Origin: Jiangella asiatica
Lineage (GTDB): Bacteria; Actinomycetota; Actinomycetes; Jiangellales; Jiangellaceae
Assembly: GCF_004349065.1 (NCBI RefSeq)
Contig: NZ_SMKZ01000021.1
Location: 1-64,000 of the forward strand
Direction: 5' to 3'
Length of the DNA stretch: 64,000 nucleotides
The position numbers and the translations under genes were made by a program. The first letter of the stretch is position 1, and each line of letters begins with the position of its first letter. The notes beneath the pieces are model-generated. The model had not been told where the DNA came from. It saw only the letters and a list, made by a program, of their open reading frames with translations, and did no database searches. This document shows, one piece after another, positions 18,813 through 47,938 of this stretch.

Positions 18813-18868
18813 CCGTGATCATCAACCGTGGGCGACGTCATAGCGTCGCCACCGGTTGATGATCACGG
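18813..18868. repeat. 56-bp palindromic element, copy A
   Basis: Arms CCGTGATCATCAAC and GGTTGATGATCACGG enclose an inner GGCGACGTCA / GCGTCGCC stem. The element matches the copy at 46821-46876 in 48 of 56 positions, and one difference (positions 15 and 42 of the element) is compensatory, C-G here and G-C there. It begins 10 nt after the luxR-like stop and precedes the rhamnosidase start, so it can act as an intercistronic terminator. Confidence 0.75.
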
Positions 18869-23931: not shown

Positions 23932-23968
23932 CCCCGGCCGCGCGCGGAATCGCTCGGCCAGAACCCGA

Positions 23969-24054
23969 AATGATCACGTCCAGCAGGATCACCCGTGCCT
24001 CACCATGATTGCGAGCATGGTGCGACACGAAATCTCGTGCTGAACGTGATCATT
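23969..24054. repeat. nested inverted repeat between the regulator and importer genes
   Basis: An 86-nt element with three nested perfect arms: AATGATCACGT (23969-23979) with 24044-24054, CAGCA (23981-23985) with 24038-24042, and CACCATG (24001-24007) with CATGGTG (24016-24022). It lies downstream of the GntR gene and upstream of the importer promoter, so it may end the regulator transcript or be a mobile palindrome. Its right part shares 14 nt with the intergenic region at 4571-4584. Confidence 0.5.
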
Positions 24055-24093
24055 CCGAGGTCGCGCGCACCGCGGGCACAGGTCAAAGTCATG

Positions 24094-45842: not shown

Positions 45843-46826
45843 GTGTCCGGGGTCCGCCTGATCGAGACGCTGCCGAAGGTGCAGTCACACCTGCACCTGA
45901 CCGGCGCGATGCGCCCGTCGACGCTGGCCGAACTGGCCGCCCGCGCCGGCATCGACGTCCTGCCGGTCCTGGACCTGGACGGTGTGCACGAGTGGCCGGC
46001 GTTCCAAGGTCGCTACGACGCCGCCCGGGCCGCGGTCCGGTCCGCCGCCGACGTAGCCCGGGTGGTGCGCGAGGCGGCCGAGGACGACGCGGCCGGTGGC
46101 TGCGGCTGGCTGGAGCTCCAGATGGACCCGACGTCGTACGCGCCCGCGCTGGGCGGAGTGGAGGCGGCTGTCGAGGCGGTGCTGGCCGGCGCGGCGGCGG
46201 CGCCGATCCCGGTCGGCGTGATCGTCGCGTCCAGCTGGGCCCGTCCGGGCGCGCACGCGACACGACTGGCCACCCTGGCCGCCCGGTACGCCGGCGACGG
46301 GGTGGTCGGCTTCGGACTGTCCAACGACGAGCGCCGCGGCCGGGTCGCGGACTTCGCCCCGGCGTTCCGGATCGCCGCGGACCACGGGCTCGCCCGCACG
46401 CCGCACGCCGGGTTCTTCACCGGCGCGGCACACGTCCGGGCCTGCGTGGAGACGCTGGACGCCACTCGGATCGGGCACGGCACCTCGGCCGTCGGCAACC
46501 CCGCGGTGCTGGACCTGCTCGTGTCGCGCCAGGTCGCGCTGGAGATGTGCCCGACGTCGTACCCGCCGTTCGGGGTGCACCCGCTGGCGTCGGTGCCGGT
46601 GCGGGCGGCGCTGGCAGCGGGTGTTCCGGTGGCCATCGGCAGCGACGACCCGCTGCTGTTCGGCGTCGGGCTGGCCGGTCAGTACGCGCTGTGCCGGGAC
46701 GTGCTGGCCCTGGACGACGCCGAGCTGGCGGCGCTGGCACGGGGCGGCATCACCGCGTCCGCCGCGTCGGCCGACCTCAAGCGGACCCTGCTGGCCGGCG
46801 TCGACACCTGGCTCGCTTCCCCGTGA
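45843..46826 (+). CDS. adenosine-deaminase-family amidohydrolase lacking key catalytic residues
   Basis: A 327-residue TIM-barrel protein of the adenosine deaminase family. Metal ligands appear intact: His16 and His18 in SHLHLTG, His188 in PHAGF, and Asp268 in IGSDDP; the catalytic His212 in RIGHG is also present. However, the family's HAGE motif reads HAGF, so Phe191 replaces the proton-transferring Glu, and HLDG reads HLTG, so Thr20 replaces the substrate-binding Asp. It therefore probably does not deaminate adenosine in the usual way and may use another substrate or be non-catalytic. GTG 45843 has GGTAGGG about 10 nt upstream. Its stop codon lies in the palindromic element that follows. 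Confidence 0.85.
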   Translation: MSGVRLIETLPKVQSHLHLTGAMRPSTLAELAARAGIDVLPVLDLDGVHEWPAFQGRYDAARAAVRSAADVARVVREAAEDDAAGGCGWLELQMDPTSYAPALGGVEAAVEAVLAGAAAAPIPVGVIVASSWARPGAHATRLATLAARYAGDGVVGFGLSNDERRGRVADFAPAFRIAADHGLARTPHAGFFTGAAHVRACVETLDATRIGHGTSAVGNPAVLDLLVSRQVALEMCPTSYPPFGVHPLASVPVRAALAAGVPVAIGSDDPLLFGVGLAGQYALCRDVLALDDAELAALARGGITASAASADLKRTLLAGVDTWLASP

Positions 46827-46876
46827 TCATCAACGGTTGGCGACGTGATGACGTCGCCAACCGTTGATGATCATGG
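46821..46876. repeat. 56-bp palindromic element, copy B, carrying both convergent stop codons
   Basis: CCGTGATCATCAACGGTTGG pairs with the complementary right arm ending at 46876, with an inner CGACGT/ACGTCG stem and a short GATG loop. The TGA at 46824-46826 ends the deaminase-family gene, and the mirror TGA (46873-46871 on the minus strand) ends the LacI gene. The stem is longer and better paired than copy A at 18813-18868. It can serve as a bidirectional terminator. Confidence 0.8.
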
Positions 46877-47938
46877 GAAGGGGGCAGGCGGGGGCGCGGA
46901 CGTGGAGCCGACCCGAAGATGCACCGGGAGGCGGACGTTGTCCGGGCGGGTGCCGCCCAGCAGGTCGGTCACCATCCGGCCGGTAACGCGGCCCTTCTCG
47001 ACGATCGGCTGGATGACGGTGGTGAGCCGGCGCTCGCCCAGCCAGGGCGTGTCGATGCCGTCGAACCCGACGACGGTGAGGTCGTCGGGCACGCGCAGTC
47101 CGGCGGCCTCCGCGGCGCGCACGACGCCGACGGCGAGCAGGTCGCTCTGCGCGATGATCGCGGTCGGCTTGTCGGGAGACTCGTCCAGCAGCGCGCCCGC
47201 GGCCTGCTCGCCCTCCTCGATGAGGTTGGCGGCCGCCTCGACCGCGACGACCGGCCCGAATGTGTCCTCGACCGCGGCCAGCCGCAACCGGCAGTCCGCG
47301 TACGCCGTGGCCTCGCGGCGGGCGGTGTCGACGTGCCCGCGCCGCCCGTCCAGTCGCAGCGGCAGCGTCACCACCCCGACGCGATAATGCCCCAGGTCGG
47401 CGACGTGCCTGGCCAGCTCGGCCGATCCGCCGTAGTCGTCGATGTCGAGCAGGACGACGTCCGGCCGGTCCGGGCCGTCGACAGCCACCACCGGCACGCC
47501 CCGGCCGACGAACTGGTCGAGCAGCGGGTCGTCGTCACCGCCGCAGGTGGCGAACACGGCCGCGTCGAGCGGCATCCGGGCCACCTGCTCCGGCGTCGGC
47601 CCGCTGCGGTGGGCGTCGCCGGAAAGCAGCAGTAGCCCGGCCCCGGAAGGACCGAGCGCATCGGCCAGCCCGTCGAGGAGCGCGACGGCGACGGGGTCGC
47701 GGAACGCGTAGAGCAACCGCTCGCCGATGACCGCGCCGACGATCCCCGAGCGGCCCCGCCGCAGCGAGCTGGCCATCGGGTCCGGGCCGAGATAGCCCAG
47801 CTCACGGGCGGCGTCGAGCACGCGCTGGCGGGTGGCTTCAGCCACCGGGCCCTGTCCGCTGAACGCCAGCGAGGCGGTGGACTGGGACACCCCGGCGCGC
47901 GCTGCGACCGCGGCGAGCGTCGTCCGGTGCTCTCCCAC
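46871..47938 (-). CDS. LacI-family transcription regulator
   Basis: A 355-residue repressor. The N-terminal HTH reads TTLAAVAARAGVSQSTASLAFSG, followed by the hinge helix region PMASSLRRGRSG and a periplasmic-binding-protein-like sensor domain (about 65-340) with DGIDTPWLGERRLTTV near the end. GTG 47938 has GGAGG 8 nt upstream. It is divergent from an MFS transporter gene, and two perfect palindromes lie between them; it should repress both genes until its ligand, likely a sugar, binds. Ala replaces the usual Val in SLAF of the recognition helix, common among actinomycete LacI proteins. Confidence 0.92.
   Translation of the reverse strand: MGEHRTTLAAVAARAGVSQSTASLAFSGQGPVAEATRQRVLDAARELGYLGPDPMASSLRRGRSGIVGAVIGERLLYAFRDPVAVALLDGLADALGPSGAGLLLLSGDAHRSGPTPEQVARMPLDAAVFATCGGDDDPLLDQFVGRGVPVVAVDGPDRPDVVLLDIDDYGGSAELARHVADLGHYRVGVVTLPLRLDGRRGHVDTARREATAYADCRLRLAAVEDTFGPVVAVEAAANLIEEGEQAAGALLDESPDKPTAIIAQSDLLAVGVVRAAEAAGLRVPDDLTVVGFDGIDTPWLGERRLTTVIQPIVEKGRVTGRMVTDLLGGTRPDNVRLPVHLRVGSTSAPPPAPFP

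Follow-up and report, generated by a model that had tools for sequence, protein, structure and literature searches.

A dispersed gene-end palindrome of Jiangella, paired with genes for an AbiEi- and Vsr-like protein, as part of a candidate mobile system

Two convergent genes in a 64,000-nucleotide stretch of Jiangella asiatica DNA (the window) take their stop codons from the two arms of a single palindrome. We consider it rather probable that this palindrome represents a mobile system of Jiangella and other Actinomycetota in its dispersed, non-autonomous form; the full unit of that system is made up of palindrome, gene, and palindrome.

The near-perfect inverted repeat occupies positions 46820–46877 and consists of CCCG, a 50-bp core frame TGATCA-N38-TGATCA, and TGGG. 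Its left arm (46820–46846, plus strand) holds TGATCATCAACGGTTGGCGACGT, the exact consensus half-site, and its right arm (46851–46877) carries the half-site TGATCATCAACGGTTGGCGACGT on the minus strand; the arms are 27 nt each, 96% complementary, and separated by a 4-nt loop. Folded as DNA, the palindrome reaches −34 kcal/mol (z = −11.3), and no shuffled sequence folded equally well. The TGA at 46824–46826 on the plus strand is the stop codon of an adenosine deaminase family gene of 324 amino acids (45852–46826, plus strand; PF00962, E 2e-70, and orthologs), and the TGA at 46871–46873 on the minus strand terminates a LacI-type regulator gene (46871–47872 with an approximate start, minus strand; Peripla_BP_3, E 2e-22). 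Both are host genes lying outside the element. Coordinates and Pfam matches bear out the preliminary description, which had a palindrome supplying in-frame TGA stops to convergent deaminase and LacI genes. The window contains a second copy of the family at 18816–18865, with the core TCAACCGTGGGCGACG. It also holds a longer TGATCA-bounded inverted repeat at 23961–24062, AATGATCACGTCCAGCAGG...CTGAACGTGATCATT, which has a relative elsewhere in the host genome (G000:C37, L317) and therefore represents another dispersed palindrome family.

We searched the host genome (7.03 Mb in 134 contigs, a fragmented assembly whose breaks may hide units) using the reversed pattern as a control. The half-site, with up to three mismatches, gave 77 + 74 matches and the reversed pattern none; the complete 50-bp frame TGATCA-N38-TGATCA was found in 99 copies, again with none in the control, as had been predicted for a dispersed element. 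Every copy has the same layout: a fixed length of 50 bp, built from 22-bp arms and six central bases and usually bordered by CCCA and TGGG, 58 bp in total. Of 21 other genomes in the host's family, 19 yielded 4–90 copies with a pattern made of the 18 end bases alone, and all controls were empty. The ends are common to the palindrome families and the inner core varies, being AACGGTTGGCGACG in the host, AACCTTTTGNGNYG in several other genomes, and AATGATCCAACC or CGGCGATCGACC in further families; variants also occur outside the host's family, for example CATGATCGCGGACGTTCCGATGG in Dactylosporangium. In 51 of 67 copies, symmetry breaks down at the pair flanking the four central bases, where there is a T-G or C-A mismatch; the window copy has no mismatch there. 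Rfam returned no match to the palindrome above the gathering score, only sub-threshold miRNA hairpins. Three copies with extended stems (L019, L028, and L045) raised the idea of insertion into older hairpins, which we rejected since pairing beyond 4 bp outside the core was close to expectation over 67 copies.

Some palindromes come in pairs about 1.07 kb apart, and in six Jiangella genomes a pair with the host core encloses one gene, encoding a protein of 315–334 amino acids (the gene is broken in G007). Most members of this protein family match the AbiEi_4 winged-helix domain (PF13338; E 7e-7 to 4e-9), and in the profile search the C-terminal part gave only a weak DUF559 match. An AlphaFold2 model (pLDDT 90.3) was compared with known structures by VIA-align 2, which matched residues 6–198 to the AbiEi antitoxin 6y8q (Z 12.3) and residues 197–305 to 3hrl (Z 11.8), I-Bth0305I (3r3p, Z 11.1), and Vsr (1cw0, Z 9.4); Foldseek agreed. 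Glu-206, Asp-237, Glu-248, Asp-250, and Asp-263, together with His-255, are invariant in the nuclease domain of 60 sequences. The fold shared by Vsr and I-Bth0305I is a DNA nuclease fold; Vsr acts on T:G mismatches, and I-Bth0305I is a phage homing enzyme. The modeled structure suggests that the protein is a putative DNA-cutting enzyme, probably joining an AbiEi-like DNA-binding half to a Vsr/I-Bth0305I-like nuclease half. By analogy with Vsr, the conserved T-G or C-A mismatch near the palindrome center is a suggestive lead and no more. The family has 1–10 members per Jiangella genome and extends to many other Actinomycetota, including Dactylosporangium, Nakamurella, Propionibacterium, and several MAGs; many of these other hosts have a matching palindrome pair of their own.

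A complete unit measures about 1.07–1.1 kb. Over 74 loci of the gene family, a strong palindrome lies on the left in 65% and on the right in 57%, compared with 2.3% of 2097 control windows; the palindrome score is arbitrary and the gene caller simple, but the contrasts with the controls are large. About 40% of the flanks have no strong palindrome by this score, more commonly outside Jiangellaceae, perhaps as a result of decay or divergence. The two palindromes of one locus resemble each other (median score of 44, compared with 9 between loci), and the true partner was the best match in 25 of 32 cases. For each dispersed family that we examined, the same genome also contains a matching unit. 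The host has two units, with cores AACGGTTGGCGACG and AACGATCTCGGG. Most of its dispersed copies match AACGGTTGGCGACG; its core A matches the unit at C96, and its core ACGATCTCGGG matches the unit L207. A solo copy carrying the second unit's core lies at C37:150654, a locus where Jiangella aurantiaca has a unit. In Jiangella muralis, the core ACCTTTTG matches the unit at C34, as do the dispersed copies with the main core, AACCTTTTG; a second set resembles the unit at C19. The genome of Dactylosporangium fulvum contains 21 half-sites of its own unit's palindrome and none of the control.

We also considered whether half-sites about 1 kb apart are paired at random and discarded this idea, as most pairs enclose a nuclease-like gene. 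At L031, L034, and L032, the half-sites flank ordinary genes and are neighbors by chance. One wide pair is explained by an IS-like integrase gene of about 1.4 kb in the loop of a single palindrome (L038:2665–4143, in G002); this palindrome is the target of the integrase, not its source. The arrangement resembles the insertion of some IS elements into REP sequences.

The genomic context of the copies was assessed in a set of 72 with a simple gene caller. None of the 72 lies inside a gene; the intergenic share of ordinary sequence from the same loci is 9.6%. In 54 copies (75%), a facing stop codon falls between −30 and +50, that is, within 30 bp upstream of the element or inside it, compared with 12.7% of ordinary intergenic bases at the same loci that lie no more than 30 bp past a stop. 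These data uphold the proposed preference for the 3' ends of genes, which is strong. The called contexts were 37 tandem, 24 convergent, and 9 divergent, with 2 at edges; the gene caller labeled the window copy tandem, but it is actually convergent. Ordinary gaps at the same loci (n = 123) comprised 64 tandem, 40 divergent, and 19 convergent. Convergent gaps are therefore enriched at the copies (25 of 70 versus 19 of 123), and divergent gaps are depleted (9 of 70 versus 40 of 123).

Among 88 facing gene ends, the palindrome's first TGA serves as the stop codon in 28; another 38 terminate 1–30 bp ahead of it, and 6 terminate inside the palindrome. Of the 34 gene ends that run into a palindrome, 28 do so in the TGA frame, where one-third would be expected (P about 6e-9). 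The preliminary description had gone further and supposed that any insertion near a gene end would be converted into a stop. This idea fails because a single reading frame meets the first TGA: read in three frames, the consensus gives one immediate TGA, one late stop near the far arm, and one open frame. The stop is less likely to be a design than a by-product, tolerated or selected, of the landing place; both target preference and selection against insertions in genes probably contribute to landing near stops.

The deaminase-LacI gene pair is conserved in most Jiangella, which allowed the window site to be compared among relatives. At the same junction, G003 carries a palindrome with another core, the TGA of which likewise serves as the stop codon, and in G005 only CCATGATCATGG is left. 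Other orthologs with the gene pair have no palindrome, and their gene ends at nearly the same point, give or take a few codons. Comparison of the orthologous gene ends placed the stops of relatives lacking the element about 0–3 codons away, indicating that the element replaced the native stop and barely changed the length of the protein.

Further comparisons between related genomes indicate mobility: a palindrome or a whole unit can be missing at an orthologous site, and units can be inverted. At the flanks, J. muralis (G009) and G004 are for the most part 90–99% alike, yet they contain 81 and 20 palindromes, respectively. A solo palindrome of J. muralis (L252) is absent at the same, closely similar junction in G004 and G007 (L258 and L263), leaving a clean difference of about 60 bp, and L246, L243, and L251 are other sites that differ in the presence of a palindrome. 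Whole units also have clean empty sites, at locus g6 in G010 and at locus g2 in G011; neither contains any palindrome, so the unit arrived or left together with both of its palindromes. At five of seven orthologous loci, the gene is found in both orientations relative to the flanks, as would result if the palindromes on either side recombined with each other. The gene and core that L092 has at locus g3 belong to the g6 lineage (support 99/91). Most units occupy orthologous positions across Jiangella, which implies that gene units move rarely. Units can therefore arrive, leave, invert, and be replaced, but they do so rarely. A pair of orthologous palindromes from closely related genomes (L248 and L266) differs by two symmetric double changes, one base in each arm, pointing to arm-to-arm correction or to selection on the hairpin. 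Whether a given site gained or lost its element is inferred, as are the choice of target and the chemistry.

We could define neither a target-site duplication nor a fixed target motif; the empty sites share no duplicated motif and are without TGATCA. Duplication of TGATCA had been hinted at by CCATGATCATGG at the Jiangella anatolica deaminase junction and by 73 solo copies of CCATGATCATGG against none in the control, only some of which look like scars. We set this idea aside because, of 20 solo copies read, many turned out to be unrelated or to be halves belonging to other palindrome families, and because the clean empty site of the L252/L258 pair has no TGATCA. Other repeat families were encountered in these genomes. 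Half-elements CCATGATCATGGCGCT...GTTGTTGCTGCTCTGGC (L227–L236, in G007 and G003) belong to a further family containing CCATGATCATGG; G004 has palindromes of the family TTTGCAATGAGCACC...GGTGCTCATTGCAAA (L268 and L276) where J. muralis has the TGATCA type; and a repeat of about 75 bp around CAACGGGACAGTCCACC...GGTGGACGGTTCGCC (L242 and L254, in J. muralis) has more than 25 matches, including in G004 and G007.

We propose the following model, in which the AbiEi- and Vsr-like protein would be the enzyme that moves the palindromes. Its AbiEi half, comprising the winged-helix N terminus and the AbiEi-like domain, is expected to bind inverted repeats, and the protein would recognize its own palindrome as a hairpin, a cruciform, or an inverted-repeat duplex. 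The Vsr half would then nick or cut the palindrome, or the hairpin formed by it, after which repair, strand transfer, or recombination could place a copy of the palindrome or of the whole unit into a new intergenic site. Solo palindromes would be short derivatives, mobilized in trans. Copies landing at or just past a stop codon would be tolerated, and in one of the three frames the terminal TGA would become the new stop codon, which would account for the two convergent genes sharing a palindrome in the window.

An alternative is that the palindromes are bidirectional terminators, hairpins without a U-tract that selection maintains at gene ends, and that the AbiEi/Vsr-like genes adjoin them by chance or employ them to terminate their own transcripts. 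The RNA hairpin is strong on either strand (−53 and −48 kcal/mol), and the facing stops in 75% of the copies, the enrichment of convergent gaps, and the depletion of divergent gaps are all as a terminator would have them. Yet nine copies sit between divergent genes, there is no U-tract at the palindrome, and an intrinsic-terminator search yielded neither a GC-rich stem with a U-run nor any terminator-like site. Nor do the mismatches bear a clear mark of RNA: G·U exceeds A·C in the sense strand by 44 to 32, which is not a significant excess, and the conserved central mismatch is more often C·A than U·G in that strand. The missing U-tract, the lack of an RNA-type mismatch bias, and the divergent sites led us to reject a simple terminator. 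The broader version with selected hairpins leaves unexplained the fixed 50-bp length, the core families particular to each genome, and the palindrome pairs that flank a single gene family in different genera, and we regard it as unlikely.

The fold of the N-terminal part raises another possibility, namely that the palindrome is an operator by which the AbiEi-like protein autoregulates, the dispersed copies forming a regulon. AbiEi antitoxins bind inverted repeats in their promoter and autoregulate through them (PMC7319586), and a palindrome lies 100–200 bp upstream of most genes of the family. An equal palindrome at the 3' end of the gene is at odds with such a role, as are the dispersed copies, which are found at 3' ends rather than upstream of genes; the units of about 1.1 kb between palindromes contain no toxin partner gene, and a Vsr-like nuclease domain would be unexpected in a repressor. 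We judge this explanation very improbable. The closeness of the nuclease domain to 3hrl, the homing endonuclease I-Bth0305I, and Vsr would instead suit a free-standing homing endonuclease gene that inserts at pre-existing palindromes, themselves spread by another enzyme, replication slippage, or gene conversion. L092 shows that a locus can hold the unit of another lineage, and the symmetric changes between L248 and L266 fit arm-to-arm correction. Against this stand the empty unit sites of G010 and G011, which lack any palindrome, and the absence of a Y1_Tnp (RAYT) gene from the host genome, and we doubt that the palindromes are merely targets.

The closest parallel in organization is the REP/REPIN-RAYT system, which likewise has tens to hundreds of short extragenic palindromes scattered through the genome, a single- or low-copy gene flanked by the same palindromes, lineage-specific families, and non-autonomous copies presumably moved in trans. 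RAYT is, however, a Y1 HUH enzyme, whereas the product of the Jiangella gene is a PD-(D/E)XK protein with AbiEi-like and Vsr-like parts; the Jiangella element differs further in its fixed 50-bp TGATCA frame and its preference for stop codons. A search with Y1_Tnp (PF01797) gave no match in the host genome and was positive in 5 of 14 control genomes, ruling out RAYT as the mobilizer. Vsr-type (EDxHD) homing endonucleases such as I-Bth0305I share the fold of the C-terminal domain. The Jiangella protein departs from I-Bth0305I in having an AbiEi-like part joined to this domain, and its gene lies between palindromes that also occur dispersed on their own. Self-copying into a specific cut site, as in EDxHD homing, may be indirectly reflected in the clean empty sites and in the unit of another lineage at one locus.

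The AbiEi antitoxins of type IV toxin-antitoxin systems have the PF13338 N-terminal domain and the fold of residues 6–198 in common with the Jiangella protein, which differs from them by the added nuclease domain and by the flanking and dispersed palindromes. No AbiEii nucleotidyltransferase toxin gene is present in the palindrome-bounded unit of about 1.1 kb, which has room for one gene alone. MITEs and insertion sequences resemble the element in that a short non-autonomous sequence with inverted ends shows presence/absence polymorphism. The Jiangella unit has no DDE transposase, however, no target-site duplication was seen, and the whole element is one hairpin. The 13E12/REP13E12 genes of mycobacteria are likewise multi-copy actinobacterial genes for nuclease-like proteins within repeat units, but their nuclease is of the HNH type (DUF222-HNH) rather than Vsr-like, and we know of no palindrome pairing for them.

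The open-access literature that we searched does not connect this protein family with palindromic repeats and, judging from that search, the mobile system is apparently undescribed so far. We see the arguments as evenly balanced on whether it constitutes an undescribed class, in which an AbiEi-Vsr-type nuclease would propagate its own palindrome by a hairpin-directed, non-HUH mechanism, with matched enzyme-palindrome pairs in each lineage, and would seed stops at gene ends.

REP-like palindromes are common, and to our knowledge Y1 transposases are the only enzymes known to accompany them. If the proposed system is real, a second, unrelated enzyme is paired one-to-one with palindrome families, and this lifestyle would have at least two separate origins. 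A large protein family usually annotated as "AbiEi antitoxin" or "DUF559" would gain a function, and many actinobacterial 3'-end hairpins currently labeled as terminators would be accounted for. The system would also provide many natural enzyme-site pairs with which nuclease specificity could be studied or engineered.
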